From contig JAKVBX010000024.1 of assembly GCA_022446795.1 (NCBI GenBank), forward strand, positions 1-56,628: a stretch of 56,628 nucleotides of DNA, in the 5' to 3' direction. This document shows, one piece after another, positions 34,095-56,628 of the stretch. This stretch comes from Phycisphaerales bacterium (GTDB lineage: Bacteria > Planctomycetota > Phycisphaerae > Phycisphaerales > SM1A02). Below the pieces are notes generated by a model. The model saw nothing but the letters and a program-made list of their open reading frames with translations, did not search any database and was not told where the DNA came from. The stretch's first letter is position 1, and each line of letters opens with the position of its first letter. The translations under genes and the position numbers were made by a program.

Positions 34095-35399
34095 ATGCAC
34101 ATGATCTCACTCACCACCACCATCATCTGCACCACCGCCAGCATGGGCCTGGCACAGAACATCTGCGATTCCGACCTGACACCGGCCGAAGCCAGGCTGG
34201 CTCGCAATCGCCAGGATGCCGGTGCCTACAGCATGCGAGCGGGACCCGTTCAACCCGTTGTCATTTCCGTCGCCTGGCATGTCCTGGAGACGACTGATGG
34301 CCGACGCGCCATCGAAGACGATGAATTGCAACTGATGATCGACTACCTCAATGACCAGTGGGAGACGGTGAACATCTCCTTTGCCGCCCACCCACTGGTG
34401 GACCGAATCGTGAACGATGTCTGGTGGGACGATGTCCCCGACGCCAATGAACTCCGGTCGATGCGACGACTGCCCAACGCGTTGAACATCTACTGGGCCC
34501 CGTCGCTGGAAGGCGGTGGGCTCTGTGGTCGCTCGAGCTTCACCTTCTCAACCCTGGACACCATCGTGATGCAGAGCAGTTGCCTGGGCTATACCGATGT
34601 TCGAGGCGTCTTTGCACACGAGGTCGGTCATTGGTTCGACCTGTTCCATACCTTTGAAACGGCTACTGGTGTCGAGTGCGTCGCCCGAACGAACTGCCTG
34701 AACACGGGCGATCTGCTGTGTGACACGCCCGCCAGTTTCGGCCTGCAGTTCACGACATGCGTCGACCCCATCACGTGCAACCGCAAGCCAGGCTCATTCT
34801 GCAACCGGAGCGGACCCTGCCCTGGCGATCCGCTGTACGACCCCAGCACGACCAACTTCATGTCGTACTCGGTCCCCCCCTGCATCTCCGAGTTCACACC
34901 CGGGCAGTACGAACGCATGCGATCAACGACCGACAACCTCCGGTCCGACTATGCCAATACCGGCCTTCACGATCCATGCCCGGCTGACATTGATGGCAGC
35001 CTCGCCGTCGGAGCCAATGACGTTCTGGCGTTGCTTGATGCCTATGGCCCGTGTTCCGATGACTGTGAATCGGATATCACCGGCGATGGCCAGACCGATG
35101 TCAATGACGTGCTGGTTCTGTTGGGCGCCTGGGGACCATGCTTCTCCTGCACGGATGCCAACGCCTGTGACGATGGTGACCCAGGGACCCTCGACTACTG
35201 CCTGTTCGGAACCTGCACCCATGAAGTGATCACCGGATGTGCCGTCGGCGAGATCCCGGACTGCAACGGCCATTGCGTGCCCGCCGCGTGGGTAGGTGAT
35301 GGTGTCTGCGATGACGGTTCCTTCACACACGATGGCCTCCCCGTGTTCCTGAACTGCGATGCGTTCAACTGCGATGGTGGCGACTGCATCTGCCCATGA
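34095..35399 (+). CDS. Secreted M43 (pappalysin-like) metalloprotease with dockerin-like and LNR modules
   Basis: 434 residues. Signal peptide (MHMISLTTTIICTTASMGLA). The protease domain has the zinc site HEVGHWFDLFH (His175, Glu176, His179, His185) and the Met-turn NFMSY; cysteines between them fit M43. The third-ligand Gly of the usual HExxHxxGxxH is Asp. At about 293-350 lie two dockerin-like calcium loops (ADIDGSLAVGANDVLALLDA; DITGDGQTDVNDVLVLLGAW), then a Cys-rich CDDGDPGTLDYCLFGTC unit, and at the C-terminus a Lin-12/Notch repeat (CNGHCVPAAWVGDGVCDDGS ... CDAFNCDGGDC). Protease plus LNR recalls the architecture of human PAPP-A. A close paralogue lies at 39344. Confidence 0.88.
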   Translation: MHMISLTTTIICTTASMGLAQNICDSDLTPAEARLARNRQDAGAYSMRAGPVQPVVISVAWHVLETTDGRRAIEDDELQLMIDYLNDQWETVNISFAAHPLVDRIVNDVWWDDVPDANELRSMRRLPNALNIYWAPSLEGGGLCGRSSFTFSTLDTIVMQSSCLGYTDVRGVFAHEVGHWFDLFHTFETATGVECVARTNCLNTGDLLCDTPASFGLQFTTCVDPITCNRKPGSFCNRSGPCPGDPLYDPSTTNFMSYSVPPCISEFTPGQYERMRSTTDNLRSDYANTGLHDPCPADIDGSLAVGANDVLALLDAYGPCSDDCESDITGDGQTDVNDVLVLLGAWGPCFSCTDANACDDGDPGTLDYCLFGTCTHEVITGCAVGEIPDCNGHCVPAAWVGDGVCDDGSFTHDGLPVFLNCDAFNCDGGDCICP

Positions 35400-35472
35400 C
35401 ACACCACCGGATCGACCCCTGAGGTCCACCGGGCTCCAATTCAACTTCTCTGCCCTGGAGAGCGAGGAATGG

Positions 35473-35504
35473 CAACCCCGCCGGTCGGCCGACCGGCGGG
35501 GTTG
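35473..35504. repeat. Perfect 32-nt palindrome
   Basis: A 16-nt arm (caaccccgccggtcgg) is followed at once by its exact reverse complement, with no loop. It lies between the M43 protease and the kinase gene and may serve as a terminator or be a REP-like element. A related imperfect copy occurs inside the PA14/LamG gene at 45552. Confidence 0.8.
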
Positions 35505-35580
35505 TACGTCTGGCGATCGCTGCCGACAACTGGCCACTGTTTCCAGGTGGCCCCGGGTTTGGCCCGCGATGGCCTTCCGT

Positions 35581-35586
35581 TAGACT
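35581..35586 (+). promoter_or_regulatory. -10-like box for the kinase gene
   Basis: TAGACT ends 9 nt before the ATG; TTTGGC lies 17 nt upstream of it as a weak -35. A nearly leaderless transcript is suggested. Confidence 0.35.
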
Positions 35587-35595
35587 TCCCCTTCG

Positions 35596-37431
35596 ATGAA
35601 GTCCCGGCTCCCGATCAACATCACGGCTCCGCTCCTGGTCGGCATTCCCGTGCTGGCCCTCGGCGTCTGGTTGTCGGTCATGTGGAGCCGCCAGTCGACC
35701 CGCATCGTCAGCGACCTCGTCGAGGACAAGATCAAGGCGATCCATGAACTGGTCGCACTGAAGATCGATGACATGGTTTCCATTCTTCCGAGGGTGTGCC
35801 AGATCAACCAACACCTGGTCGTCAGCGGGGTCCTCGATCCAAACGCCCTGGAAGACTGGCGTCCGACGCTCTACCAGGAACTGTCCAGCTTCGACATGCT
35901 CAGCGCCGTGACCTGGGGCAGCGAGGACGGACGGAGCGCATGGGTCGCAAGATATACGGATGGGTCGATCTACTGGGATCTCAAGTCGGACCCGTCGATC
36001 CCCACCATGTTCGAATGGCGGATCGATGAGGAGGGCAACATCGACTCCGAACCCACCAACCAGTTCGACTACGACCTGCATACGAGACCGTGGTACCTCA
36101 CCCCCCGGGCCGCCGGCCAGCCGGCATGGAGTCCACCCTACATCTGGGCCGGCGCTGCGGACAGCGAGGTCGCCACCGTTGGCATCTCGTATGGCATCCC
36201 CCTCTACCTGGACGACGGTTCACTGCTGGGCGTGGTGGATGCCGACTTCACGCTTGATGATCTCTCCGGGTTCCTTCGCACCATCGAGATCGGAAAGACC
36301 GGGGTCGCCATCCTCGCCGCTCGTGACGGCACACTCCTCGCCGCATCGCGGGACACCCGCATCGCCTCGGACGATGGCACGCTGTTCCAGGTCGCCGAGT
36401 CCATCGACCCCATGATCGCCAGCATCGCTGAGCCGCTCGGTAATCTCGTCCCCGGCGAAATCGCCACCGCGTCGATCCAGTTGAATGGTGAAGATCACTT
36501 CCTGCAGATCACCACGGCTGGAACCGATGTCGGTCTTGACTGGCGATTGGCCACGATCGTCCCGGAGTCCGATTTCCTGGCCGATATCGAATCGCAGTTC
36601 CAGAAGAGCCTCATCCTGAGCATCATCGTCGTCATTGCGGTCGTGCTCCTGGCGGCCGGCGGCACGCGATGGCTGCTCACCCCGCTGATCCGCCTGGTCT
36701 CGGCCGTCCGCGACGTCGGCCAGGGCAAGCTTGATACGAGAGTGGCACTGGGCACCGCGAACGAATACGTCATGCTCGGTAGCGCCATCAACGAGATGAC
36801 CGAGAACCTGGAGCAGTCCCGCGATCGGGAATTGCTGCTGCAACGCGAACTCGATCATCGTGTCAAGAACATGCTGGCGCAGATCGTCGCCCTCTGCCGA
36901 CAGACGGCTGACCGGGCCACGGAGGATCAATCGATCGTCAACGAACTGGTGGGACAGGTCACGTGTCTTTCGGGCGTTCATGAACTGCTCGGGAAGCGAG
37001 GACAGGTCGGCCTGTACATGCGTGAGCTCATTGCCGAATGTTGCCGACCGTACCTCTCGTCCGAAACGCAGTTGGAGCTGACCGGGGCCGAGATCTTCGT
37101 CCGCCCCCGGGCCGCCATGTGCCTGACGATCGTGTGCAATGAACTGGCTACCAATGCACGAAAGTACGGGGCCCTCATCTCCGAAGGAGGCCTCATCTCG
37201 ATCCAGTGGTCCGAGACCGAGGACGACGAGGGCGAACCCGCCCTGTCCTGGACCTGGACGGAATCGGGCGGCACGGCACCGACCTCAAATCCGACCCCGG
37301 GATTCGGTACCCGCTTGCTGGAATCCCTGATTCCCTATGAGATGTCCGGTTCCGTTTCCTTGACATTTGATCCCAGCGGCCTCCGCTATCATGCGACCAT
37401 GCCGATGGCGGAGTTCTCGGCACCTGACTGA
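35596..37431 (+). CDS. HWE-type sensor histidine kinase with dCache sensor and HAMP
   Basis: 611 residues. Two membrane helices (about 10-30 and 338-355) bracket a double-Cache extracytoplasmic sensor (TRPWYLTPRAAGQPAWSPPY, VDADFTLDDL). HAMP follows at about 360-410. The dimerisation/phosphoacceptor region is HWE/HisKA_2-like with ELDHRVKNMLAQIVALCRQT (His420), then the N box CNELATNARKYG, the diagnostic WxE (QWSE) and a short G box (TPGFGTRLL). HWE kinases often phosphorylate single-domain receivers, and one follows 40 nt downstream. The ligand is unknown; dCache domains bind small molecules such as amino acids or amines. Confidence 0.9.
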   Translation: MKSRLPINITAPLLVGIPVLALGVWLSVMWSRQSTRIVSDLVEDKIKAIHELVALKIDDMVSILPRVCQINQHLVVSGVLDPNALEDWRPTLYQELSSFDMLSAVTWGSEDGRSAWVARYTDGSIYWDLKSDPSIPTMFEWRIDEEGNIDSEPTNQFDYDLHTRPWYLTPRAAGQPAWSPPYIWAGAADSEVATVGISYGIPLYLDDGSLLGVVDADFTLDDLSGFLRTIEIGKTGVAILAARDGTLLAASRDTRIASDDGTLFQVAESIDPMIASIAEPLGNLVPGEIATASIQLNGEDHFLQITTAGTDVGLDWRLATIVPESDFLADIESQFQKSLILSIIVVIAVVLLAAGGTRWLLTPLIRLVSAVRDVGQGKLDTRVALGTANEYVMLGSAINEMTENLEQSRDRELLLQRELDHRVKNMLAQIVALCRQTADRATEDQSIVNELVGQVTCLSGVHELLGKRGQVGLYMRELIAECCRPYLSSETQLELTGAEIFVRPRAAMCLTIVCNELATNARKYGALISEGGLISIQWSETEDDEGEPALSWTWTESGGTAPTSNPTPGFGTRLLESLIPYEMSGSVSLTFDPSGLRYHATMPMAEFSAPD

Positions 37432-37843: not shown

Positions 37844-38881
37844 ATGGTGGTCACCGGCCCCATCTCGCTGGCATTCGTGTCGCTCGCAACGACGACTTAC
37901 CTCTTCGCCGCCGACCTTCAATCAGATCTTCCGTACGAATCGCCAGGCAGTACCTCGGCCGTCCTGGATGTGTATCGACCAGACGATGGTCTGCAGCCGG
38001 GCGTGCCCACGATCCTGTTCATTCATGGCGGCGCGTGGTACGCCGGGGACAAGACGGATTCACCCGATTTCCTGACGGCCCTCGCTGACGCGGGCTATGG
38101 AGTCGTGTCCGGAAACTACACGCGATCCTCACCCGAGTTCTCCTCCTATCCCCAAGCGGTTCATGACGTCAAGGCCATCGTCAAGTGGATCCGAACAGTC
38201 GGCAGCGAGTTGGGATTGTCCCCAACGGTGATCTCGACCGGGCCGTCTGCTGGCGGTCACCTCACCATGTTGCTCTCGACCAGTTCCGGGATCGAGGTCT
38301 TCGAGCCACTGGCCCCACCACCGGGCGGATACGACATCCAGGCCGCGATTCCATTCTGGGGACTGTCCGATCTGGTGACGCAGGCAAACGACATGGGCAG
38401 CAGTGGCCCACTGGCCTGGTTCCTGGGCGATATCTATGACGCTGATTGTCATGATCTCTATGTCGAAGCCTCCCCCATCACCTGGGTCAGTACGGATGAT
38501 CCGCCGATCCATCTCGCTCATGGGCTCCTCGACCACCTGCATCCATGGCGACAATCGCTTGAGCTCCAGCAGGCGATGCAGTCCCTCGACATTCATGCCT
38601 CCGCTGAATACTTCGTTGGCGGCCATGGGTTCGAGGAATACGGTGGCGAGTGGGTTGCGGCAGCCATGGTCATCGACATGATTCCCGAACTGCTGGCACA
38701 GGGGCGGACGCCAGACATTGATCGCGACCACGACATTGATGTTGATGATCTGCTCGTCATGCTCAGCAACTGGTCGACGTGCCCCGAGTTACCCGCCGAC
38801 TGCCCCGCGGATCTGGATGGCGACGGAACGGTGGGCCTGCCCGACCTCATGCAATTGCTGAACGACTTTGGAAGTCGTTGA
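37844..38881 (+). CDS. Secreted alpha/beta hydrolase (HSL/BD-FAE-like esterase) with dockerin-like C-terminus
   Basis: 345 residues. Signal peptide (GPISLAFVSLATTTYLFAAD). HGGAWY (about 60) is the HSL-type oxyanion motif; GPSAGGH carries the nucleophile Ser (about 135); an Asp near 229 (GLLDHLHP) and the His of GGHGFEE near 260 complete the triad. An ester substrate is likely; the polymer or small-molecule target is unknown. The C-terminus has two calcium loops (DRDHDIDVDDLLVMLSNW; DLDGDGTVGLPDLMQLLNDF). Start only 6 nt after the receiver gene suggests co-transcription with a two-component system. Confidence 0.85.
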   Translation: MVVTGPISLAFVSLATTTYLFAADLQSDLPYESPGSTSAVLDVYRPDDGLQPGVPTILFIHGGAWYAGDKTDSPDFLTALADAGYGVVSGNYTRSSPEFSSYPQAVHDVKAIVKWIRTVGSELGLSPTVISTGPSAGGHLTMLLSTSSGIEVFEPLAPPPGGYDIQAAIPFWGLSDLVTQANDMGSSGPLAWFLGDIYDADCHDLYVEASPITWVSTDDPPIHLAHGLLDHLHPWRQSLELQQAMQSLDIHASAEYFVGGHGFEEYGGEWVAAAMVIDMIPELLAQGRTPDIDRDHDIDVDDLLVMLSNWSTCPELPADCPADLDGDGTVGLPDLMQLLNDFGSR

Positions 38882-39343: not shown

Positions 39344-40495
39344 ATGTCTCGATGCAGCATCGTCGGCCTTCTCATGCTCACCCTGTTCTCCAGCCGGACC
39401 ATGGCCCAGGAGTCGTGCGGCGCTCACATGACGCCAGCGGACATCCAGCGAGCCTGGGAACGCTACGGCCCCGACCGGGGCCCCATCACACCGATCAGCC
39501 AGGACATCCTTGTCGTCACCATCGCCTGGCATGTCCTCGGACGCACGACCGGAGAGGTCGCCATGACGGAAGACGAACTCCAGGCCATCCTGGACATGCT
39601 CAACAACCGCTGGGACCCCATCGACATCGAGTTCAAGGCTCACCCCGTGGTCGATCGGATCATCGATGACGAGTGGTACGACCAGGGCGTACCGGATGCC
39701 AACGTCTTTCGCGCGATGCGGCCGATGCCCAACGCCCTGAACATCTACTGGGCGCCCACGCTCCACAACGGACTGCTCTGTGGCATCGCGGGCTACTCCT
39801 TCTCAGACCTGGACTCGGTGGCCATGCAGACGACCTGCTTCGGCGATTCCGATGTGAGCGGAATCATGTCGCATGAGATCGGTCACTGGTTCGATCTGTT
39901 TCACACCTTCGAGCATGCACTGGGCCTGGAGTGCGTCGCTCGGACGAACTGTTCCCACGCCGGCGACTTCTGCTGCGACACCCCAGCCGACTTCAATACC
40001 GGGTTCGAGGCCTGCGTCAATCCGGACACCTGCCGACTTCGCCACGGCGAGTGCAGCGAGCAACCCGGTCCCTGTGACGATGATCCGTTCTATGAACCGT
40101 CTACCATCAACTTCATGTCGTACATACCAACGGGCTGCCTCAAGGAGTTCACGTCCGACCAGTATGATCGCATGCGATACTCACTCGAGACCTTCCGACC
40201 GGGGTATGTCAACACGGGACTGCACGCCCCCTGCCCCGGCGACCAGAATGGCGACCTGCTCACCGACATCGATGATCTCCTGGTCATCATCAACGGATAC
40301 GGGAACTGCACCGGCCCCTGCCCGAGCGACCTGGATGGCAACGGCATCGTCAACGTGCTGGACCTGCTCATCGTGTTCGACAACTGGGGCAGCTGCTTCG
40401 ATTGCACGGACCCCTTCGCCTGCGACGACGGCGATCCGAACACGATCGACTACTGCTGGTTCGGGACCTGCGTGCACGACCTGGAAAGCCGCTGA
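39344..40495 (+). CDS. Secreted M43 (pappalysin-like) metalloprotease with dockerin-like module
   Basis: 383 residues. Signal peptide (MSRCSIVGLLMLTLFSSRTMA). The zinc site is HEIGHWFDLFH (His176), again with Asp in place of the usual Gly, and the Met-turn is NFMSY. Much of the protease domain matches the paralogue at 34095 (e.g. PNALNIYWAP, LECVARTNC, CDTPA). Two dockerin-like loops follow at about 296-350 (DQNGDLLTDIDDLLVIINGY; DLDGNGIVNVLDLLIVFDNW), then CDDGDPNTIDYCWFGTC. The LNR module of the paralogue is missing, so the chain ends shortly after. A GGAAGG precedes the ATG. Confidence 0.87.
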   Translation: MSRCSIVGLLMLTLFSSRTMAQESCGAHMTPADIQRAWERYGPDRGPITPISQDILVVTIAWHVLGRTTGEVAMTEDELQAILDMLNNRWDPIDIEFKAHPVVDRIIDDEWYDQGVPDANVFRAMRPMPNALNIYWAPTLHNGLLCGIAGYSFSDLDSVAMQTTCFGDSDVSGIMSHEIGHWFDLFHTFEHALGLECVARTNCSHAGDFCCDTPADFNTGFEACVNPDTCRLRHGECSEQPGPCDDDPFYEPSTINFMSYIPTGCLKEFTSDQYDRMRYSLETFRPGYVNTGLHAPCPGDQNGDLLTDIDDLLVIINGYGNCTGPCPSDLDGNGIVNVLDLLIVFDNWGSCFDCTDPFACDDGDPNTIDYCWFGTCVHDLESR

Positions 40496-40624
40496 ATGGG
40501 CTGACCATTCCCGGACCGAGTCACCGAACCCCGAACCAGGACGGCCCAGGCGGCCACAGGAAGCCCATCCCTATATATAGGATCGCCGCTTCCAGCGAAT
40601 GCCCCCCCATCTCAGGCGTGGGCC

Positions 40625-40653
40625 TTGATCCAACTGGGATTGAAGACCAGAAT
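40625..40653 (+). promoter_or_regulatory. TTGATC-type promoter of the beta-helix gene
   Basis: TTGATC (40625-40630) is followed after 17 nt by CAGAAT (40648-40653); the gene starts 36 nt further, behind a GGGGGAGAG ribosome site. The same TTGATC element recurs before the genes at 51234, 54746 and 56260. A palindrome cctatatatagg lies at 40570-40581. Confidence 0.45.
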
Positions 40654-40689
40654 GGAGGGGATAAGCCCTCCGGGGGAGAGAAGAGACCC

Positions 40690-43440
40690 ATGCGATACCT
40701 CACCGCTGCCATGGCAGCCGCCGGCCTGCTCGCAGGATCGGCCCATGCTGCAACCATCTCCGTGCCCGGGGACTATCCAACGATCCAGGAAGCCGTGGAT
40801 GCGGCCGTCACCGGGGATGAGATTCTCATTTCCGAAGGCGTCTACACCGGCAGTGGTGACAACGTCGTCGAGATCACCGGCAAGTCCATCACCCTTCGAG
40901 CCGTCAACCCCCAGTCGGACGCCACGGTGATCGACGGTGAGGGCGAGCGGCGAGGCATTCGCTGCTTTGGCGCCGATACCAACGGAACAGTGATCGAGGG
41001 TTTGACGCTGACCAACGGCTCCGCATCCATCGGGGGCGGCCTGTCCATCCAGTCCTCGACGATCATCGTGCTGGGATGCACCGTGACCGGCAATACCGCG
41101 GATACCGATGGCGGTGGCCTGCACTGCCTGTATGGCGGATTCGAACTCACCCAGTGCCAGCTCACGGGCAACGTCACCGGCGGCAACGGCGGTGGCGCCT
41201 TCGTCCGCTATGGAACAGCCGCCATCACCAATTCCGACATCAGCGCAAACACCGCAGACGAATTAGGTGGAGGCCTGTACGCCGCCAACTCGGAAGTCTC
41301 CGTCATCGAGACGACGATCGGTTCCAATGCCAGTTCAAGCAGCGGCGGCGGCGTCCTGTTGATCAGTTGCCAGCCTGACCTTCAGGCCTGCACGATCGAA
41401 GCCAACACGTCCAGCACCGGCGCCGGAATTCGCGTACTGGGCCCGGACACCTGTTCGATTACCGGCTGCACCATCTCCGGCAACCAGGCCACCGATGCTG
41501 GAGGCGGCCTGGAATCGGCCAACGCCAATCCCACGCTCGTGAACACGGTGACCTGTGGAAACACACCGCAGAACATCCTCGGGACCTGGTCTGATGGCGG
41601 CGGCAACTGCGTCACCTCCTTCTCGTGCCAGGACACCGACCAGGATGGCTACCCGGACGAGTGCTCCACCGTCGGCGACGGTGTCCACGAGGTTCCCGCG
41701 GAGTTCCCGACGGTCCAGGCGGCCGTGATCGCGGCCGGAAACGGCGACACCATCCTCGTGTCACCCGGCACGTGGACGGGCACCGGCGACTCGGTCATTC
41801 GACCGAACGGCAAGCAACTCCAGATCCAGTCCACCGACGGTCCGGAAACGACGATCCTCGACGGCGAAGGCCTGCGGACCGTCATCATCTGCAGTGGCGG
41901 CGAGACCGAGGAGACCCTGTTCGAGGGCTTCACCATCACCGGCGGATCGAACTACTCCGGCGGCGGCATCCGCTGCATCGCCAGCAGCCCCCGATTCGTC
42001 AACTGCCTGATCCAGGGCAACACCGTGGGCGACTTTGGTGCCGGCCTGTACAGCAGTGGCGGCAGCCCACGCCTGGAGAGCTGCATCATCCGGAACAATG
42101 TCGCGGATGACAACGGCGGCGGCGCCTATTGCATCGGTGGCGGACCGATCTTCACCAGTTGCGACTTCAGCCAGAATGCCGCCAGTGACGGCGGCGGCGG
42201 CCTGTCACTGCTGGGTTCACTTGGCACCATGACCCAATGCACCATTTCCGCCAACGGCGCTGGTGGCCCGGGGGGCGGCCTCGACTGCAGCAACAGCAAC
42301 GCCACCTTCACCCTGTGCACCATCGTGGACAACGCCACGATGGAGACGGGCGGCGGCGTGTACGCCAACGGTGGAACCAACTCCTTCTTCGACTGCAACA
42401 TGAGCGGCAACTCCGCATACGACGGTGGTGGCATCACGCTTGTATCGTCCATGGCCTCTCTCACCGGATGCACGATCAGTGACAATACGGCAGCATCTGC
42501 CGGCGGCCTGCGAGCCGACACCTCCGAACTCATGCTGACCGACAGCCTGATCACCGGGAACACGGCCACCGATGCCGCGGGAGACGGCGGCGGCCTGCAC
42601 CTCTCCTACTGCACGCTCGACCTCGTCACGTGCCTGGTGGCCGGGAACAGCTGTGGCAACCTTGGCGGCGGGCTCTACGCTTTCGGAGGGCTGCTGACAC
42701 TCTCGCAGACTGAACTCCTTGCCAACCAGGGCACGTTCGGCGGCGGGCTGTACGGCACGTCCACCGAGGCGACGATCACCGACACCACGATCAGCAGCAA
42801 TACGGTCGAAGCGGATGGAGGCGGGCTCTACGCCACGTCCACCGCCCTGACCCTGTCCGGATCCCGGATCGACTCGAACCATGCCGAGGGCAACGGCGCC
42901 GGCATCTACCTGGTGAACAGTGAGCCGACCCTGACCGACTGCCTGATCCACGACAATGCGGCCGACGGCGCCTTCAGCGATGGTGGCGGCATCCACTTCT
43001 ACGTCACCAACGGCCTGGTCGAGGGATGCACCATCTGGAACAACACGGCCTCGCGACGCGGCGGCGGCATCTACTGCCGCATCAACAGCGCCCCGGCGAT
43101 CTCCAACTGCACGATTGCCACGAACACCGCCGATGCCGGCGGCGGCGTCTTCTCGCAGCAGTCCAATCCGTCGATCGCCGGCAGTACGCTGTGCGGCAAT
43201 GCCCCGGACAACGTTGAGGGCACCTACGCCGACGGCGACGGCAATGCCTTCCTGGAGACCTGCGTATCGGACTGCCCGGGCGACGTCGATGGCAACGGAG
43301 TGGTGGACGTGAATGATGTTCTCCTCCTGGTGAGTGCCTGGAACACCGCGGACTACGACGCCGATCTCGATGGAGACGGCCTGGTGGATGCCGACGATGT
43401 GCTGATCCTGCTGGCTCACTATGGCGACACCTGCCCCTAG
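40690..43440 (+). CDS. Secreted right-handed beta-helix protein with dockerin-like C-terminus
   Basis: 916 residues. Signal peptide (MRYLTAAMAAAGLLAGSAHA). Two tandem beta-helix units are seen, each with the same N-terminal cap: VPGDYPTIQEAVDAAVTGDE at about 23 and VPAEFPTVQAAVIAAGNGDT at about 333, linked by DQDGYPDEC. The coils carry POMP/parallel-helix repeats (GNTA, GGGL, xCTIxxN). The end holds a dockerin-like pair (DVDGNGVVDVNDVLLLVSAW; DLDGDGLVDADDVLILLAHY) and finishes in DTCP. Beta-helix folds in such proteins bind or cut polysaccharides; no catalytic residues could be assigned. A longer in-frame start at 40402 lies in the previous gene and is not used. Confidence 0.85.
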   Translation: MRYLTAAMAAAGLLAGSAHAATISVPGDYPTIQEAVDAAVTGDEILISEGVYTGSGDNVVEITGKSITLRAVNPQSDATVIDGEGERRGIRCFGADTNGTVIEGLTLTNGSASIGGGLSIQSSTIIVLGCTVTGNTADTDGGGLHCLYGGFELTQCQLTGNVTGGNGGGAFVRYGTAAITNSDISANTADELGGGLYAANSEVSVIETTIGSNASSSSGGGVLLISCQPDLQACTIEANTSSTGAGIRVLGPDTCSITGCTISGNQATDAGGGLESANANPTLVNTVTCGNTPQNILGTWSDGGGNCVTSFSCQDTDQDGYPDECSTVGDGVHEVPAEFPTVQAAVIAAGNGDTILVSPGTWTGTGDSVIRPNGKQLQIQSTDGPETTILDGEGLRTVIICSGGETEETLFEGFTITGGSNYSGGGIRCIASSPRFVNCLIQGNTVGDFGAGLYSSGGSPRLESCIIRNNVADDNGGGAYCIGGGPIFTSCDFSQNAASDGGGGLSLLGSLGTMTQCTISANGAGGPGGGLDCSNSNATFTLCTIVDNATMETGGGVYANGGTNSFFDCNMSGNSAYDGGGITLVSSMASLTGCTISDNTAASAGGLRADTSELMLTDSLITGNTATDAAGDGGGLHLSYCTLDLVTCLVAGNSCGNLGGGLYAFGGLLTLSQTELLANQGTFGGGLYGTSTEATITDTTISSNTVEADGGGLYATSTALTLSGSRIDSNHAEGNGAGIYLVNSEPTLTDCLIHDNAADGAFSDGGGIHFYVTNGLVEGCTIWNNTASRRGGGIYCRINSAPAISNCTIATNTADAGGGVFSQQSNPSIAGSTLCGNAPDNVEGTYADGDGNAFLETCVSDCPGDVDGNGVVDVNDVLLLVSAWNTADYDADLDGDGLVDADDVLILLAHYGDTCP

Positions 43441-43683: not shown

Positions 43684-45018
43684 ATGCGTTCCCACTTGCC
43701 CTCGCTCTTCACCAGCCTCTTCCTGACCAGTGCCTGCGCCATGGCGGGAACGCTCCATGTACCCGCCGACTACGACACCCTCCAGGATGCGGTCGATGCG
43801 GCGGCAGACGGCGATGAAATCCTCATCGGCCCGGGCAACTGGACCGTGGGATTCGTACCCCCCTCCACGCCGCAGGTCGTCGACACGCTCGGCAAGTCGC
43901 TCGTGATACGGTCGACTGATGGACCGGAGAAGACCAGCATCGATGGCGAGGGCCGGCGACGCGTCATCACCGTCAGTCCGAACAAGTACGCAACCGTTCA
44001 TCTTGACGGACTGACGATCACGGGCGGCGACACCGATGAGCGAGGCGGCGGAATCTATGCGCCGGAGACCAATCTCACGATCACCAACTGCATCATCACG
44101 GGCAATGCCGCATACGACTTCGGCGCCGGAGTCTGCTGCTGGCACAGCAACCTGGTCATGGAGCGCTGCACGGTCTCCGACAACAGTGGGCATGCCAGTG
44201 GCGGCGGGCTCCGCTGCCTCGGTTCGGGAACAGTCTCGATCTCCGACTGCACCTTCACCAGCAACCGGACGTGGCAATACTCCGGCGGCGCCATCAGCCT
44301 CTATGGCATCATCACCGGCAGTGTCACCAACTGCATCATCAGCAACAACGAGTGCACGTTCGGATTCGGCGGCGGCCTCTCGATGTGGTCCGGCTGCCAA
44401 GTGAACGTCGCGAACTGCACGATCACCGGAAACGCATGCGGTGGACAGATGGGTGAAGGCGGTGGAATCTCATGTCGGTCTGCCTGCATCTCAACGATTA
44501 CCGACTGCCTGATCACCGGCAACACGGGAATACGAGGCGGCGGCCTGTACCTCCACGACCGCTCCGAGGTGTACCTTGCCCGATGCGAGATCAAGTCAAA
44601 CACGGCCGAGCACGGGGGCGGGATCCAGAACTCGCAGAAATGCATTGTCACGCTCGACAACTGCGTCGTCTCGAACAACATCAAGACTGGATTGGCCGGC
44701 GGAGGAATCCTTACCGACTACTGGAATCCGGACGAGTCCTGGGAACCGATTCGGCTGGTCGACACATTCGTCTGCGACAACACACCGGATCAGATCGACG
44801 GCTTCTGGCTGGGCTATGGCACGACCGAGGTATCCGATGACTGCCCGACCTGCACTGGTGACGCCACTGGCGATGGCGTGATCAACGTCGATGATGTTCT
44901 GCACGTGCTCTCCGCCTGGGGCGGCTACGACCCAGAGGCCGACGTTGACGATGACGGATTGGTTGACGTGAACGATGTCCTGTTGCTGTTGAGCCGGTTC
45001 GGCACCCCCTGTCCCTGA
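43684..45018 (+). CDS. Secreted beta-helix protein with dockerin-like C-terminus
   Basis: 444 residues. Signal peptide (SLFTSLFLTSACAMA). It has the family N-cap (LHVPADYDTLQDAVDAAADG), one set of helix coils (ITGGDTDERGGGIYAPE, CIITGNAAYDFGAGVC, and so on) and the C-terminal loops (DATGDGVINVDDVLHVLSAW; DVDDDGLVDVNDVLLLLSRF) ending in TPCP. About half the size of the neighbour at 40690, whose duplicated helix it resembles. AGGAG lies about 10 nt before the ATG. Confidence 0.85.
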   Translation: MRSHLPSLFTSLFLTSACAMAGTLHVPADYDTLQDAVDAAADGDEILIGPGNWTVGFVPPSTPQVVDTLGKSLVIRSTDGPEKTSIDGEGRRRVITVSPNKYATVHLDGLTITGGDTDERGGGIYAPETNLTITNCIITGNAAYDFGAGVCCWHSNLVMERCTVSDNSGHASGGGLRCLGSGTVSISDCTFTSNRTWQYSGGAISLYGIITGSVTNCIISNNECTFGFGGGLSMWSGCQVNVANCTITGNACGGQMGEGGGISCRSACISTITDCLITGNTGIRGGGLYLHDRSEVYLARCEIKSNTAEHGGGIQNSQKCIVTLDNCVVSNNIKTGLAGGGILTDYWNPDESWEPIRLVDTFVCDNTPDQIDGFWLGYGTTEVSDDCPTCTGDATGDGVINVDDVLHVLSAWGGYDPEADVDDDGLVDVNDVLLLLSRFGTPCP

Positions 45019-45222: not shown

Positions 45223-45250
45223 TTGGTCCCGACGACCCCCGTGCTACCTT
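45223..45250 (+). promoter_or_regulatory. Promoter candidate TTGGTC-16-TACCTT
   Basis: TTGGTC at 45223 and an extended -10 TGC-TACCTT at 45242-45250, about 90 nt before the PA14/LamG gene. The GTGCTAnnnTTG context matches the one before sucA. Confidence 0.35.
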
Positions 45251-45339
45251 GGGATCTGGCACAATGGTCCCGTGACCGGGATCACCTGGCCACTGAAAGC
45301 AACGCTCTCGGTGGCCGCCGCGGCGAAGGAGCAGGACCC

Positions 45340-48300: not shown

Positions 48301-49221
48301 CCAAACGACATGTCCGGCACGTTTGACAACGGCCTGGCCACGTATGCCGCCGATGTCGCGACCGATCCCGTTCCACAGACCGGCCTGACCAACAGTCAGT
48401 CACTGGATCTGAATTGGCAGAGCACTTCCGCCTCCGGGACGTACACCGTCAACGACACGAATGGCGTGCTGTCCATGGGGAACCAGGACTTTACGATCGA
48501 GGCCTGGGTCAAGCTGGACCATCTCAGCACGACCGGCGGTGCCAACCAGCGGCAGTATCTCTGCCAGAAGAAACCCCTGCCTTCCCAGGATGGACTACTG
48601 GACTACGCCTTCCTGGTTCAACGTGGCAACAACGAGCCCATCCCGAACTACGGCGAATACACCGGCAGCGGACGGGAAATGCAACTGGTCTTCGGTTCGG
48701 GAACGAACACCTCCAGCCGCTGGGGCGCGACATCCAACCTGGAGATCAATGACCTTGAGTGGCACCTGGTGTCAGTGGCCTTTGATGCCAATCGGCGCGT
48801 CGTCCGGTTTGGGCTTGATGGCCAGTTCGAGGAGGTCCAGATCTCCAGCAGTGCGCCCAGCCATACCACGAACGATGGACCACTCCGCGTCGGCGGTCAT
48901 CAGAATGGAACGGGAACGGATAATCACTTCCTTCGCGGCGCCATTGATGAAATGCGAATCAGTCGTGGTGTCGTTCCGACGACAATGCTGCTCGATGCCC
49001 AGGGATACCCCTACTCGAATGATGATGACGCCAATGGCACCCCGGATGAATGCGGATGCGAAGGCGACGTGACGGGCGACGGCATCATCGATGTCAATGA
49101 CGTCCTGCAGGTCATCGCGGCCTGGGGTGGAACGGACCCCGATGCTGACGTCAACGGCGATGGAACGGTCGGCGTCGACGACCTGTTGATTGTCATCAAA
49201 CGATGGGGACCGTGCCCGTGA
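45340..49221 (+). CDS. Large secreted multidomain protein: duplicated unnamed domain, Ca-binding repeats, two PA14, LamG, dockerin-like end
   Basis: 1293 residues. Start at ATG 45340 behind GAAGGAG. Signal peptide (LLIAMGLAIAPLSAEAMA). Two similar domains (about 87-256 and 314-485) share WLNTFTI/WLNHFTI, AFAIVTESAPAAVYLW versus AFGLAAEGTPALVHVW, and DPNGDGDPTDA/DPNGDGNPSDA. About 15-17 DCNGNGxPDxC repeats, like thrombospondin type-3 calcium loops, link the parts. PA14 domains lie at about 571-707 (GLVGLYYDNDSWEG, SIEHDDSGAVYL) and 772-917 (GLIAQYFKNDAADNQF, TQTDDGVRLWVDDEQLID). A LamG-like fold follows at about 967-1219 (FTIEAWVKL, LRGAIDEMRISRGVV). The C-terminus (DVTGDGIIDVNDVLQVIAAW; DVNGDGTVGVDDLLIVIKRW) ends GPCP. 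Probably adhesion or glycan binding; no catalytic domain seen. Confidence 0.87.
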   Translation: MGRLNAIGRRATNRLLIAMGLAIAPLSAEAMAGADQIAARPPLDRQVSPPKQITDRICLTPSTTAQSHPPARRSADRGGCTGSELIYRHDDGTYEVGVRSDGTHGGWLNTFTIEGDAVVIEAIDVAFAIVTESAPAAVYLWSDPNGDGDPTDAEVLASATLTATDYLVQRVDIPDTYIGEAGTTYFVGVLMAYAEPVDAAFPAAYDNSEPNTTGVSWIIGANSPLNPDDLTDGAIEFALIEDALGGATMDLGVRAVSTATFDCNDNGVPDHEEINDGIADDCNSNCIPDDCEVLEADCNGNGLPDDCDLGGEPVPVYAYDDGFGDNNIGLSGAGDVIWLNHFTIQPNGEVLAGMKVAFGLAAEGTPALVHVWDDPNGDGNPSDANTLWTFNMTVQAPDTNQFIPIPFDDGIILGPEGTSFFVGVQVMHATGEYPARIDQSSDQQESWLAAGSDVVDPDNLANAPIFGLTGGIGFPGNWMIRVIPEADIPPNDCNVNGIPDECDIADGGADSDCNGNGVPDSCEIDADDCNGNGLPDECDPDCNGDGIPDDCQVPESDCDNNGIEDECQLKNTGLVGLYYDNDSWEGDFVLSRIDSEIDFSENNFPPAPMPPDNFSVRWVGSLVPPTTGTYTLSIEHDDSGAVYLNSSPVIPLNGTGTHTTTADLVAGQAYHLRVDFAENSFSHYCKLRWIPPGGSLDIIPTAHLRPVFDSNANNIPDICDFGDCDQNDFPDNIDLESPLGRDCNGDGILDSCQAGCDCDNNGFLDSCEADAPSGLIAQYFKNDAADNQFVDRVLVRIDSEVDFDWGGGSPHPSMPNNEFTIRWTGTVTTTAAAGVYEFFTQTDDGVRLWVDDEQLIDQWVPQSSTEHSGSLSLDANTVYSIRMEYFEDGGDAVARLSWRPPDGQKTIIPSSALGPMNDSDGDGIPDTCNADCNGNGVPDSLDLADGTSSDCNGNCTPDECDVVIQVNYGQAHWRFEQIDGNSVIDSGPNDMSGTFDNGLATYAADVATDPVPQTGLTNSQSLDLNWQSTSASGTYTVNDTNGVLSMGNQDFTIEAWVKLDHLSTTGGANQRQYLCQKKPLPSQDGLLDYAFLVQRGNNEPIPNYGEYTGSGREMQLVFGSGTNTSSRWGATSNLEINDLEWHLVSVAFDANRRVVRFGLDGQFEEVQISSSAPSHTTNDGPLRVGGHQNGTGTDNHFLRGAIDEMRISRGVVPTTMLLDAQGYPYSNDDDANGTPDECGCEGDVTGDGIIDVNDVLQVIAAWGGTDPDADVNGDGTVGVDDLLIVIKRWGPCP
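45552..45574. repeat. Imperfect palindrome inside the PA14/LamG gene
   Basis: ccgccgatcgg pairs with ccgatcgcggcgg apart from two extra bases. The surrounding sequence resembles the perfect palindrome at 35473 and encodes RRSADRGGC in the linker after the signal peptide; the copy at 35473 would read RRSADRRGC. Confidence 0.5.
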
Positions 49222-49310
49222 CCCAACGGGATCCACTCCGGCTCGCCCCTGGAGCGAGTCCTGCGATGAAGCGGGGTCATACCAGCACCAACCAACCAGG
49301 AGTTCGGCCG

Positions 49311-50261
49311 ATGAGCCAATGGGCCATGGCCGCCCTCCTGGCGGTGTTCGCCGGAGCGGCGAGCAGCATGGCGGACACGATCCATGTGCCGGCAGAGGCA
49401 CCCACGATCAGTGACGCTGTCGCGACCGCTGGCCCCGGCGACACGATTTTGATCGCCGCTGGAACGTACACCGAGTCGGGGATCTTCATCGATGACCCGG
49501 ACATCACGATGATCGGCGAGGTGAACAGCGACGGTACGCCAGCGGTCACGCTGGATGGCCAGGGAACGAATGACATCCTGCTGGCCATCGGCCTGGTCAA
49601 TGCGACCGGCGCCACGATCGAGAACCTCCGGTTCACCGGCTCCATCGGAAACGCCGTGTGGATCTACCACCACTCCCCAACGATCCGAAACTGCCTGTTC
49701 ACCGGAAACTCGACTGTCTTTGCCGGAGGGGCCATCTGGTCCTCGGACACGCAGGCCGTCATCGAGTCCTGCCAGTTCATTGGCAATACTGCCGGGGACA
49801 ACGGGAGTCTCGTGCTTGCCAAGGGCACGACGGGAACCCGTGGCCATGCCGGCCCCGTCTTCCGCGACTGCCTGTTCCAGGACAATGACGGCTACTGCAC
49901 GCTCATGGTCCAGTTCCATGACGCGGACGTCGAGAACTGTGACTTCCGCGGTAACAGCGGCCACTCGGCCATCTACGTTCACTCCAGCACGCTTGATGTC
50001 TCGGGCAGCCTGTTCTGTGAAAACGGGGGCGCACCGATAACCGGACCGTACGATGACGGTGGCGACAACACGTTTACCGACACCTGCCCCGTGGACTGCA
50101 TGGGTGATCTCAATGGCGATCTCCTGATCGACATCGATGACCTGCTCTTCCTGCTGGGGGCCTACCAGGTCAATGCCGATGGTGACTGTGACGATGACGG
50201 AGATACCGACGTCGACGACCTGTTGCTCCTGATCGGGGCCTATGGCCAGGGCTGTGGATGA
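49311..50261 (+). CDS. Secreted beta-helix protein with dockerin-like C-terminus
   Basis: 316 residues. Start at ATG 49311 because CAGGAG lies just before it and the signal peptide (MSQWAMAALLAVFAGAASSMA) begins there; an earlier ATG at 49266 would add 15 polar residues. N-cap IHVPAEAPTISDAVATAGPG, a short set of coils (CLFTGNSTVFAGGAIWSSD, CQFIGNTAGDNGSLVL), and loops DLNGDLLIDIDDLLFLLGAY and CDDDGDTDVDDLLLLIGAYG ending GQGCG. It follows the PA14/LamG gene by 89 nt and may be on the same transcript. Confidence 0.83.
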   Translation: MSQWAMAALLAVFAGAASSMADTIHVPAEAPTISDAVATAGPGDTILIAAGTYTESGIFIDDPDITMIGEVNSDGTPAVTLDGQGTNDILLAIGLVNATGATIENLRFTGSIGNAVWIYHHSPTIRNCLFTGNSTVFAGGAIWSSDTQAVIESCQFIGNTAGDNGSLVLAKGTTGTRGHAGPVFRDCLFQDNDGYCTLMVQFHDADVENCDFRGNSGHSAIYVHSSTLDVSGSLFCENGGAPITGPYDDGGDNTFTDTCPVDCMGDLNGDLLIDIDDLLFLLGAYQVNADGDCDDDGDTDVDDLLLLIGAYGQGCG

Positions 50262-51233: not shown

Positions 51234-52460
51234 ATGAACCGGAAACAACGACTGATCGCCATGGCCCTGGCGCTGCTGCTCCCCTCGCTGGCCCTCGCGG
51301 AGCTCGATGGACCGATCAACAAGCCATTCATCAAGTCCGTCGGCGCCTGGATCTTCGTAGGCGAGGACGACCGGCAGGAGGGAAGCAACTATTGGAACAG
51401 CAACAGCTCCTACCAGTCGCTGATTCAAAACAACGTCTATGAAGCCGTCGACGTCTTGTGCATCGGCCTGATCAATACCGTCCAGGTCAATGCAACGACA
51501 TGGCCAAGCACGACCCATGGTGGCTCCGGATGGACCCTTCACTTCACGGGTGCCGGCCATGACGCGGGAGGCCAGGTGCCTGGCGCACCCACAATGCCCC
51601 CGGGCGGCTACACCAACCAGACCTACTTTGAGCAGATCATCCAGGATGCCCGGGCTGCCAATCCCCACATCCGCATCACGGTCGGCTCGATGTATGCCCC
51701 CGGCGATGTGTTCAGCCGGATCTTCGCGGACCCGGCCAATCCCCAGGAGTCCGAAGCCCGGTCATTCGCTGAAAATGTCGCCGAGTTCTGCCTGCAACAT
51801 CAGATCAATGGCTACGACATCGACTTCGAAGAACCCCTGGCAACGAACACGTCCGCCGAACAGTTCAATCTCATCATGAGCGAACTGGGAACCGCCTTCC
51901 GAGAGAAGTACGATCTTGCCTATGGCCGCAATCTCTGGCTGCTGATGACCCCGGCTGTATCCAACGTGAGCGTACAACTCAATTCCAATTCGTCAAACAT
52001 CATCAATGCCAACCTCTATGCCATGAACCTCCAGATGTACAATGGTGAGTACCAGCAGACGTTGTACTGGGACACCCTGGGCGTCAACTCGAACCTCTAC
52101 GGCTACACTGGAAGTTGGGAAGTGCCGGCTGATTCCGAGGGCAACTACAATCCGCCAACACCGGAAGCCGTGCTCAAGGACAATGCCTCAAGCAACAGCC
52201 AGCAGATCATGATGTGGCGATTGAACTCCGGCCCCCCGGCGCTCTGGCAGCTGGAACAGAGTTACCAGAAGCAACTCTACGCCGCCACTTTTCCACAATC
52301 AGGCGATGTTGACGGCGACACCGATGTCGACTCGAACGACCTGTCAGCACTCCATGCCACCCTGGGAATCTGCCAGGAAGATGTCAATCACGACGGCGAC
52401 ATTGACATCGACGACCTGCTGCTCCTGATCGAAAGCTGGGGGGAGTCCTGTACGCCATAG
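51234..52460 (+). CDS. Secreted GH18-like (chitinase-fold) protein with dockerin-like C-terminus
   Basis: 408 residues. Signal peptide (LIAMALALLLPSLALA). GYDIDFEEP at about 194-202 matches the GH18 DGxDxDxE motif with its acidic catalytic Glu; ITVGSMYAP before it and LLMTPAVSNV, YAMNLQMYNG after it fit strands of the TIM barrel. It could hydrolyse chitin-like or other GlcNAc glycans, or only bind them. The C-terminus has loops DVDGDTDVDSNDLSALHATL and DVNHDGDIDIDDLLLLIESW ending in SCTP, nearly the same as the protein at 54746. The uup gene is convergent. Confidence 0.75.
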   Translation: MNRKQRLIAMALALLLPSLALAELDGPINKPFIKSVGAWIFVGEDDRQEGSNYWNSNSSYQSLIQNNVYEAVDVLCIGLINTVQVNATTWPSTTHGGSGWTLHFTGAGHDAGGQVPGAPTMPPGGYTNQTYFEQIIQDARAANPHIRITVGSMYAPGDVFSRIFADPANPQESEARSFAENVAEFCLQHQINGYDIDFEEPLATNTSAEQFNLIMSELGTAFREKYDLAYGRNLWLLMTPAVSNVSVQLNSNSSNIINANLYAMNLQMYNGEYQQTLYWDTLGVNSNLYGYTGSWEVPADSEGNYNPPTPEAVLKDNASSNSQQIMMWRLNSGPPALWQLEQSYQKQLYAATFPQSGDVDGDTDVDSNDLSALHATLGICQEDVNHDGDIDIDDLLLLIESWGESCTP

Positions 52461-54655: not shown

Positions 54656-54682
54656 TTCCTTCTATATATGGAAGGCACACCC

Positions 54683-54711
54683 TTGATCCTCGCACCGGAT
54701 CTGCAATGATG
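54683..54711 (+). promoter_or_regulatory. TTGATC element, copy before the beta-helix gene
   Basis: TTGATC (54683-54688), 17 nt, ATGATG (54706-54711), then the GGGAGGGG ribosome site and ATG at 54746. Read as sigma-70 type, the -10 is AATGAT with a 16-nt spacer. Confidence 0.45.
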
Positions 54712-54745
54712 CCCGGATCTTGATTTCACATTGGGAGGGGAAACC

Positions 54746-56086
54746 ATGAATCGCATCGCTGCTGTAGTCGCCGGTCTGTCACTGGCTTCCGTTGGAACCT
54801 CTGCAACCTACGCTGCAACCCACACGGTCTGCCCGAGCGGATGCGACTACACGAGTATCCAGGATGCGATCAGTGCGTCTGTCGATCACGACGTGATCAC
54901 GATTGCCCCCGGGATATTCCATGAGCACCGCCTTGACCTTGGCGGCAAGGCCATCACCATCCAGGGCACCCGCGACAGCAATGGCGCTCTTGCGACGACC
55001 ATTGATGCTGGGCAACACGATGATGTGTTCGAAATCCACTCCGGTGAAGGCAACGACACGGTGATCAAGGACCTGATGATCACCGGCTGTGGCGTCACCG
55101 GGATCTACACCTTTAACAGCAGCCCAATCATCATCGGCTGTCAGATTACAGGCAACACGAGTTGGGACGTCGGCGGGGGGATCCAGTGCGATGGTACCGG
55201 CGCGACCCAGATCATCGACTGTACCATTACGGACAACACGGCATTGAAAGGCGGCGGGATCATGTGCCGGCAACCGGACGCCGTCATCAGGGGCTGCGTG
55301 ATCACCGGCAACACGGCCTCGGAGGGCTTCGGCGGCGGGATCTACTGCGGCGAAGGGCATCCCACCATCACGGACTGCACGATCACGGACAACACGGCCC
55401 ACCACGGCGGCGGTGGCATTTTCCTCTTTGAGGACAACTCATCTTCGATCTCTCACTGCACAATCTCAGGTAACACGTCCAGGGGTGAGGGATTATTCCC
55501 TGGCGGGGGCGGGATCTACATCTTCCCGCGCGGGACACCTGCGATCCTCGACTGCACGATTTCTGACAACACGACCAACCGGGGTTCCGGCGGCGGGCTC
55601 TACGTCTATATTTCTGCCAAGCCCACCATCACCAGCTGTACGATTACGGGCAATCATGCCCCTCACGGCTCTGGCGGGGGGATCTACTGCGATGTTGATA
55701 GCCAACCCACCGTCATCGGCGGCACCATCTCGGGCAACTCCCCTCATGGAATTTTCAGGGCGCACGAATCATCGCGAGGTGACGCGCCTGATGTCGGGCA
55801 TGTCATTCTCGAGGACGCGATGGTCTGCGGCAACGGCAACGCCACATCAGTGCTTCAGGTTGCGGGCATGTTCATGCATTTCGGAGAGACCCGGATCGCC
55901 AATGACTGCGATCCAGGCACAGATACAGGCGACCTCGACGAGGACGGCGATGTTGATACGGATGACCTGTCTGCACTGCATTCAGTGCTGGGTGTCTGCA
56001 CGCACGACACCAACCACGACGGCATCACTGGCATCGATGACCTGCTGGATGTGATCGAGGGTTGGGACCAGTCCTGCACGCCATAG
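54746..56086 (+). CDS. Secreted beta-helix protein with dockerin-like C-terminus
   Basis: 446 residues. Signal peptide (MNRIAAVVAGLSLASVGTSA). N-cap variant VCPSGCDYTSIQDAISASVD with two Cys, regular coils (CTITDNTALKGGGIMC, CVITGNTASEGFGGGIYC, CTISDNTTNRGSGGGLYV), then the dockerin-like end (DLDEDGDVDTDDLSALHSVL; DTNHDGITGIDDLLDVIEGW) finishing SCTP. The dockerin part is of the same subtype as that of the GH18-like protein, while the helix matches the partial gene at 56260. Strong ribosome site GGGAGGGG. Confidence 0.85.
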   Translation: MNRIAAVVAGLSLASVGTSATYAATHTVCPSGCDYTSIQDAISASVDHDVITIAPGIFHEHRLDLGGKAITIQGTRDSNGALATTIDAGQHDDVFEIHSGEGNDTVIKDLMITGCGVTGIYTFNSSPIIIGCQITGNTSWDVGGGIQCDGTGATQIIDCTITDNTALKGGGIMCRQPDAVIRGCVITGNTASEGFGGGIYCGEGHPTITDCTITDNTAHHGGGGIFLFEDNSSSISHCTISGNTSRGEGLFPGGGGIYIFPRGTPAILDCTISDNTTNRGSGGGLYVYISAKPTITSCTITGNHAPHGSGGGIYCDVDSQPTVIGGTISGNSPHGIFRAHESSRGDAPDVGHVILEDAMVCGNGNATSVLQVAGMFMHFGETRIANDCDPGTDTGDLDEDGDVDTDDLSALHSVLGVCTHDTNHDGITGIDDLLDVIEGWDQSCTP

Positions 56087-56118
56087 CCCCCCTGGTCCAC
56101 AACACCTGAACCCCACCG

Positions 56119-56147
56119 CAGCCCCGGCAGAGACCCTGCCAGGGCTG
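56119..56147 (+). terminator. Repeated 29-nt hairpin, copy 4
   Basis: Same element with one C-A mismatch in the stem, followed by tttcttta, a better U-rich tail than in the other copies. Downstream of the beta-helix gene at 54746. Confidence 0.65.
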
Positions 56148-56195
56148 TTTCTTTATAAAGAAGCCCCCAGCCAGCCACCCTGACCCTGTTCCCCC

Positions 56196-56224
56196 TTGAT
56201 CCAGGCACCAAAATCACCATGATG
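56196..56224 (+). promoter_or_regulatory. TTGATC element, copy before the last gene
   Basis: TTGATC (56196-56201), 17 nt, ATGATG (56219-56224), 36 nt before the ATG. The same order hairpin - TTGATC - ribosome site - gene as at 54627-54746. Confidence 0.45.
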
Positions 56225-56259
56225 GAGGGATCACAACTCCATCTTGGGGAGGGGAAACC

Positions 56260-56628
56260 ATGAATCGCATCGCTGCTTCCGTCGTGGCCATTTTGGCCTT
56301 TGCTGGAACATCATTCGCTGCCACCATCAATGTGCCCGGCGACCAGCCCAGCATTGCGGCGGCGATCAGCGCGTCAGTCAATGGCGACGTGATCAACATC
56401 GCCCCCGGCACCTACAACGAGCACTCGCTCAACCCCGGCGGCAAGGCCATCACCATCCAGGGCACGCTCAATGGAGATGGAACACTGGCCACCACCATCG
56501 ATGCCCAGCAGGGTGGCCGCGTGTTCACGATCGAGTCTGGTGAAGGTGACGGAACCGTGATCAAGGACTTGGTGATTACTGGTGGCTCGGCTGGGGACGG
56601 CGGCGGGATCTACTGCAACGTCAGCAAC
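56260..56628 (+). CDS. Secreted beta-helix protein, 3' end missing
   Basis: 123 codons to the window edge. Signal peptide MNRIAASVVAILAFAGTSFA, then the N-cap INVPGDQPSIAAAISASVNG and the first helix coils (GTVIKDLVITGGSAGDGG). The stretch from GGGAGGGGAAACC through the first seven codons is almost identical in DNA to the start of the gene at 54746, and GKAITIQGT recurs, so the two are recent tandem duplicates. A dockerin-like end is expected past the edge. Confidence 0.8.
   Translation, partial: MNRIAASVVAILAFAGTSFAATINVPGDQPSIAAAISASVNGDVINIAPGTYNEHSLNPGGKAITIQGTLNGDGTLATTIDAQQGGRVFTIESGEGDGTVIKDLVITGGSAGDGGGIYCNVSN

Follow-up and report, generated by a model that had tools for sequence, protein, structure and literature searches.

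Dockerins are almost automatically taken to be parts of cellulosomes, and the cellulosomal dockerins (PF00404; structure 2y3n_B) are among the described systems closest to the module that we report here. Another is the cohesin/dockerin ‘planctosome’ proposed for peptide degradation in the planctomycete family Nemodlikiaceae; in the part of that account drawn on here, planctomycete dockerins are found on peptidases and other proteins, and the model requires cohesins (PMC6461901). A third is the PEP-CTERM/exosortase system, in which a C-terminal tag is likewise borne by many exported proteins. The module considered here is encoded in a 56,628-nucleotide stretch of a Phycisphaerales bacterium (contig JAKVBX010000024.1 of assembly GCA_022446795.1; the window hereafter), where nine proteins on the plus strand between positions 34095 and 56086 share a two-loop dockerin-like sequence. 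It corresponds to the curated NCBIfam entry NF041540 (dockerin_GC, ‘GC-type dockerin domain-anchored protein’), which, as far as the entry is visible, names no receptor, disulphide or mechanism. A sequence-only reading of the window had offered the module as the best candidate for an undescribed system, and this is too strong in that NF041540 already names the domain, although we found no paper on the tag among open-licence papers on GC-type dockerins, or on dockerins in connection with Planctomycetes sorting, PEP-CTERM, or orphan modules and cysteines. We think it probable, if only slightly so, that the module is a tag, locked by calcium and a disulphide, for docking to a lineage-specific receptor that would not be recognisable as a cohesin.

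A dockerin tag throughout the genome

All nine window proteins carry the two-loop module, as the sequence-only reading had claimed, and their partner domains in Pfam are M43, BD-FAE esterase, beta-helix, PA14 with laminin-G-like, and GH18. Parts of that reading need adjustment. The two loops are present, but the proposed motif DxNxDGxxDVxDLLxLLxxW is a loose description, since three proteins depart from it at loop 1, which is degenerate in the first M43 protease (34095-35399) and is followed by DLSALHxxLG in the GH18 protein and in the last beta-helix protein (54731-56086). Placement of the module is C-terminal in seven of the nine proteins but internal in both M43 proteases. Six chains do end as CP, CP, CP, GCG, CTP and CTP, but these ends lie 12–14 residues past the last Asp of loop 2, after its helix, and not immediately after the loop.

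NF041540 describes the same two-loop module as the window tags, but its model best fits tags of another genus in the order (g3), with best scores per genome of 56–60 bits compared with 45 in the genome that holds the window (G000; 3.54 Mb in 78 contigs, 96% complete). Within the window its cut-off (29 bits, whole protein) is passed by three of the nine proteins, and that of PF00404 (Dockerin_1; 22.9 bits) by two (Table 1). Across G000, NF041540 has at least 150 matches at E ≤ 10 (150 of 199 candidates scored), the weakest of which are doubtful and which include only five of the nine window tags, so that some tags are missed; 47 among the matches listed are over the cut-off. PF00404 has 33 matches in G000 at E 0.001, with 31 over its cut-off. 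The NF041540 count shows the tag to be genome-wide and beyond chance. The earlier view that otherwise unrelated proteins of secreted type have this tag in common, mostly at the C-terminus, is supported.

To parse the tags, a profile was grown from the nine window tags and applied to the surroundings of the NF041540 matches in G000. This gave 161 two-loop modules, reduced to 152 by dropping eight with thrombospondin-3-like repeats and one cut by a contig end; one tag with masked letters alongside (L067) was kept unchanged. The module lies no more than 23 residues from the C-terminus in 142 of the 152 and is internal in the other ten. An upstream stop was available for 82 tagged frames, of which 52 have a Sec-like N-terminus by a crude rule. 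Pfam and NCBIfam searches of 105 tagged proteins, picked by length, show that the cargo includes beta-helix proteins, proteases of the S8, C1, C25, M12B-like and M43 families, esterases, glycosidases, arylsulfotransferases and more.

Predicted fold and paired cysteines

The module is predicted with high confidence to be a dockerin, with a helix after each of its two calcium-type loops. The AlphaFold2 model of the PA14 protein tag, made with the nine window tags, has a predicted local distance difference test (pLDDT) value of 96.1, and the closest structure in the PDB is 2y3n_B, a Bacteroides cellulosolvens dockerin (Foldseek E 8.2e-4, template-modelling score 0.86), to which VIA-align gives Z 9.4 and a root-mean-square deviation of 1.4 Å across 54 residues. 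A sequence search also has 2y3n_B as its top match (2.8e-9), with calmodulins next. The calcium-ligand positions are conserved in the tags, which may bind calcium, and the model places strand residues at 10-11 and 51-52, which may pair and so bring the two ends of the module together. The tag resembles cellulosomal dockerins in its calcium loops and predicted fold, but differs from them in having no recognisable cohesin, in its co-occurring Cys pairs, and in its largely non-cellulolytic cargo.

The Cys pairs are the basis for proposing that the ends of the module are held together covalently. When the five residues before loop 1 are considered, 125 of the 152 G000 tags have both an N-side Cys and a C-side Cys and 17 have neither, with only eight carrying the C-side and two the N-side Cys alone (p = 1.2e-14); extending this to seven residues gives 127 with both, 15 with neither, six with C only and four with N only (p = 9e-13), and the same four counts result with a window of six residues. 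The linker contains no Cys in 98 tags, two in 40, one in 12 and three in two, and the total number of Cys is even in 136 of the 152 tags, whereas 10,000 shuffles averaged 107 (or 110) and never exceeded 124. As a test for kinship, each tag was matched to its nearest neighbour by loops and helices with Cys masked; both sides differ in 22 of these contrasts, one alone in 14 and none in 116, and for 11 of the 15 Cys-less tags the nearest neighbour has both. It thus seems that the two clasp Cys have come or gone jointly on several occasions.

Tags from 80 named loci were parsed with a profile, with thrombospondin-3-like repeats, short flanks and duplicate cores dropped by rule, and of the 115 obtained, 96 have both Cys, 13 neither, five the C-side only and one the N-side only. 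One pattern in the search that yielded these loci included the N-side Cys. A separate count was therefore made of the tags lying away from the matched place, and among these 26 have both, six neither, four C only and one N only (p = 6e-4). A regular-expression parse of the same loci (both in 60, neither in seven, C only in seven and N only in four; n = 78) misplaced loops in several of its rows and has been superseded by the profile parse.

The simplest and most likely reading of this co-occurrence is that the terminal Cys forms one half of an intramolecular disulphide with the Cys just before loop 1. A clasp of another kind has been described in the DocScaA dockerin of Ruminococcus flavefaciens, where, in the portion of the paper used here, it is formed intramolecularly by stacking of Trp-651 and Pro-727 (PMC5934362), whereas that of the tag is presumed to be a disulphide. 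There is also a CTP-ending subclass with a different arrangement of Cys, comprising two window proteins (51234-52460 and 54731-56086) and L004, which has a related variant of DLSALHxxLG; in these the partner may be the Cys that follows helix 1.

The search for cohesins

The claim that no cohesin accompanies the tags is borne out as far as recognisable ones are concerned. The Pfam model PF00963 has no match in G000, and a ten-row profile of planctomycete cohesins, used at E 0.1, finds none in G000 or in six of the seven other tag-rich genomes of the same order (G251, G002, G034, G095, G172, G270 and G278). Cohesins are present elsewhere in the phylum, with PF00963 matching in 41 of 294 genomes at E 0.001, two of them in the same order. 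Among 15 same-order genomes the profile matches only G278, G220 and, weakly, G198, the first two having supplied rows of the profile, and one of the eight tag-rich genomes, G278, thus has a cohesin-like domain. The G278 match (L139:368-2071) is a secreted-type protein that looks like a metalloprotease, with the stretch HEVGHVLGLDH when read by eye, and its cohesin-like domain is an inner one flanked by dockerin-like loops; the protein was rejected as a scaffold. Fifteen tag-bearing genomes reached through the named loci (one, G299, being G251 again) have no match over the cohesin cut-off, and there is one weak match broken by a stop.

The closest rival to the proposed docking tag is an ordinary but divergent cohesin-dockerin system, perhaps akin to the ‘planctosome’, whose cohesin lies beyond the models used. 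The predicted dockerin fold fits this well, as do the complexes proposed in Nemodlikiaceae (PMC6461901, in the part used here), the 41 cohesin-bearing genomes of the phylum, and the cohesin-like domain beside dockerin-like loops in the tag-rich G278. Nonetheless, the ‘planctosome’ model, in the portion noted above, requires cohesins and none is recognised in G000; the profile is silent in nearly all of the other tag-rich genomes, no tag-bearing genome from the named loci has a match over the Pfam cut-off, and a single cohesin in one genome is insufficient as a general scaffold. We regard a divergent cohesin as rather unlikely. The earlier suggestion that the module may not be a cellulosome dockerin holds to the extent that, as far as models can tell, it is not an ordinary one; the anchoring Cys suggested in place of that role does not fare as well, as discussed below.

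Lineage-specific helix faces

We compared the recognition columns (the helix and adjoining positions) within and between lineages, using the uncleaned G000 set. Identity in these columns is 0.38 within G000, 0.45 within the flavobacterial set described below, and 0.76 within g3, a uniformity that is inflated because this set of 16 rows is made up of the tags that score best with the family model. Between lineages it falls to 0.17 for G000 vs g3 and 0.34 for G000 vs the flavobacterial set, whereas 0.79 of the calcium columns are identical between G000 and g3. In G000, repeats 1 and 2 of one tag are also more alike (0.45) than those of different tags (0.37). The likeness of faces within a lineage is as expected with one receptor per lineage, although this is suggestive only.

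A mere cap would not require helix faces that differ by lineage while the calcium positions stay conserved, and this bears on the proposal that the module is a receptor-free calcium/disulphide cap that protects exported proteins or helps them to fold. Both the clasp and the calcium loops would be stabilising and the cargo is very diverse, but with the pattern of the faces we consider this explanation clearly unlikely.

Distribution in the order and the relationship to PEP-CTERM

A survey of the phylum (294 genomes) with NF041540 at E 1e-5, in which up to 19 candidates per genome were scored, gave matches in 11. All eight genomes of two families of the order (f1 and f2) have at least 18 or 19 matches each and 64–223 first-look candidates, and the remainder are three further genomes of the same class, with two (G127), one (G209) and four (G287) matches. 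The seven genomes of two other families (f3 and f4) have no NF041540 match at E 1e-5, with four to nine candidates each, although fainter tags are possible elsewhere, as up to 29 candidates are seen in genomes of the class that gave no match.

PEP-CTERM (PF07589) has the reciprocal distribution within the order. It has no match in the two f1 genomes, G000 among them, and 10, 16, 9, 10, 2 and 2 in the f2 genomes; in f3 and f4 the counts are 123, 69, 55, 34, 42 and 67, with none in G220. The tag is thus abundant in the PEP-CTERM-poor families and scarce in the PEP-CTERM-rich ones, a distribution which suggests that in two families the tag may have functionally replaced PEP-CTERM. The two differ in that the membrane-helix-like end is rare in the tag, with such a stretch in the final 40 residues of only two of 151 tagged proteins.

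Exosortase was rejected as a tag-processing enzyme, since it occurs in all 15 same-order genomes searched, irrespective of the tag. By eye, the exosortase has an EpsI-like part that is fused in G000 (L199:4461-6254) and encoded separately in G251 (L200:4364-6302), and in both it adjoins an apparent polysaccharide-export protein, with no PEP-CTERM match in either genome. In f3/f4 stretches chosen for PEP-CTERM ends, all 21 parsed two-loop modules have neither clasp Cys, and 14 of 23 aligned modules (L179-L194) immediately precede a PEP-CTERM-like end, giving two successive C-terminal modules. A swap of tags on homologous proteins was rejected, as there is a single example of it. From 22 stretches of genomes with PEP-CTERM, 48 frames were selected by a pattern at the C-terminus, several of these frames being out-of-frame noise; just one, in G077, had a match among the tagged proteins of G000 (31% over 277 residues, E 1e-20).

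Flavobacterial carriers and type IX secretion

Ten of the 80 named loci are labelled Flavobacteriales or Crocinitomicaceae (L208, L219, L226, L229, L249, L250, L261, L266, L275 and L277), and all 12 tags parsed from them have both clasp Cys. The nine genomes to which these loci belong (G300-G308), labelled Flavobacteriales, have 12–21 NF041540 matches each at E 0.01, and all nine have SprA together with 30–67 matches to Por_Secre_tail. The G+C content of the flavobacterial-labelled loci is 0.52–0.66, which is high for marine Flavobacteriales, and their binning deserves a check, although the presence of several tags per genome argues against stray contigs. Two other loci, L278 (titled Planctomycetaceae) and L280 (titled Bacteroidia), have identical tag letters, which points to mis-binning of one of the two records.

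These carriers raise the question of whether the tag is a secretion signal for passage across the outer membrane, like the C-terminal domain of the type IX secretion system (T9SS). The T9SS often carries C25, M43 and S8 families, all of which are among the cargo, as is a domain with the Pfam name GBD_T9SS_assoc, and the flavobacterial carriers do have a T9SS. However, neither SprA nor Por_Secre_tail has a match in the 20 Phycisphaerae genomes searched, including G000, so that the T9SS is rejected as the route in these genomes and any such signal is at least not a T9SS one; with ten tags being internal, we find a secretion signal highly unlikely.

A proposed role for the tag

The configuration that we favor is one in which the dockerin module folds with its two calcium-type loops, each with a helix after it, and has its ends locked by a disulphide from the Cys before loop 1 to that at or near the C-terminus, a covalent clasp suggested by their co-occurrence, often with a second Cys pair in the linker. 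Some 150 exported enzymes and beta-helix proteins would then dock to one and the same receptor outside the cell, which would not be recognisable as a cohesin, both export and receptor being supposed here, and each lineage would have its own receptor, giving rise to the lineage-specific helix faces. Within the order, the tag would occupy the place of PEP-CTERM in two families, a replacement that the distribution suggests.

Several observations weigh against this interpretation. We found no receptor for the tag. Ten of the 152 tags have a single clasp Cys, including those of the CTP subclass, two of which are in the window. The excess of within-tag repeat likeness is near nil in g3 (0.71 vs 0.70) and in the flavobacterial set (0.50 vs 0.48), the g3 faces are less uniform than their sampling makes them appear, and likeness from cargo to cargo could come partly from copying of the tag sequence. 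Only four families underlie the reciprocity with PEP-CTERM, which may reflect one or two events, G220 has neither tag nor PEP-CTERM, and the four g3 genomes hold 9–16 PEP-CTERM matches besides their tags.

A broader version is that these components constitute a display system of their own, in which the locked tag and a receptor unrelated to cohesins succeeded PEP-CTERM in part of the order and function beside the T9SS in some Flavobacteriales, with faces and receptors having changed together. We hold this version to be doubtful.

The weakest alternative, that the terminal Cys is itself a sorting or anchoring site for lipidation or processing as the sequence-only reading had proposed, is scarcely credible, for although a Cys stands at the clasp position in 123 of the 142 C-terminal tags and among the last four residues in 116 (37 end exactly in Cys), this Cys co-occurs with the N-side Cys and the two are mostly absent together, 15–17 of the 152 tags have neither, ten are internal, and membrane-helix-like ends are rare.

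Dockerins are usually assigned to cellulosomes; here about 150 are encoded in one 3.5-Mb genome with no recognisable cohesin, and the same pattern of tags without cohesins is seen in genomes labelled as a second phylum. A common receptor, if there is one, would organise a large share of the proteins that these bacteria keep outside the cell, with the module as a compact, disulphide-locked display tag. The reciprocity with PEP-CTERM supplies a set of genomes for a comparative search for that receptor.

Tagged proteins and other genes of the window

The nine tags and their family-model scores are listed in Table 1. The reading frame at 40402-43440 probably has its true start at MRYLTAAM. Cys-rich stretches follow the tags of both M43 proteases, and similar ones are seen after tags in L010, L039, L043, L087, L097 and L128. 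At nine tags in 22.5 kb, the window has the most among 144 places. Four of these tags, however, are manual additions made for the window only; when just the NF041540 places are counted, it has five, compared with six in stretches of C9 and C23, and we make no claim of clustering.

Table 1. Coordinates, chain ends and family-model scores (bits) of the nine tags in the window; unlisted at E 1 for NF041540 where so marked. ORF, open reading frame.
Protein	Gene or ORF	Tag	Strand	Chain end and Cys	NF041540	PF00404
M43 protease	gene 34095-35399	34977..35141	+	internal, Cys-rich tail after; 4 Cys (N side, two linker, C side)	unlisted	unlisted
BD-FAE/alpha-beta hydrolase esterase	gene 37844-38881	38708..38878	+	end FGSR; without either clasp Cys, linker Cys pair present	17.1	unlisted
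Second M43 protease	gene 39344-40495	40232..40396	+	internal; 4 Cys	unlisted	unlisted
Beta-helix protein	ORF 40402-43440	43273..43437	+	end TCP	31.7	20.0 (under cut-off)
Beta-helix protein	gene 43684-45018	44851..45015	+	end PCP	34.2	unlisted
PA14/LamG protein (sequence used for folding)	ORF 45223-49221	49057..49218	+	end PCP	29.4	23.9
Beta-helix protein	ORF 49203-50261	50097..50258	+	end GCG	unlisted	unlisted
GH18 protein	gene 51234-52460	52296..52457	+	end SCTP; CTP subclass, Cys after helix 1 not before loop 1	unlisted	27.0
Beta-helix protein	ORF 54731-56086	55922..56083	+	end SCTP; CTP subclass	unlisted	unlisted

Between the first tagged protease gene and the esterase gene is that of an HWE histidine kinase with a Cache-like sensor domain (35596-37431), and directly upstream of the tagged cluster is a gene for a tetratricopeptide-repeat protein with a doubled CXXCH motif (31442-33778). 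The Pfam-matching proteins of the first half of the window are mostly housekeeping. E1 and E2 of 2-oxoacid dehydrogenases are encoded twice, by gene sets lying apart from each other (5332-9434 and 27439-31180), and a frame of 1111 residues at 17674-21009 has no Pfam match at E 1e-5.

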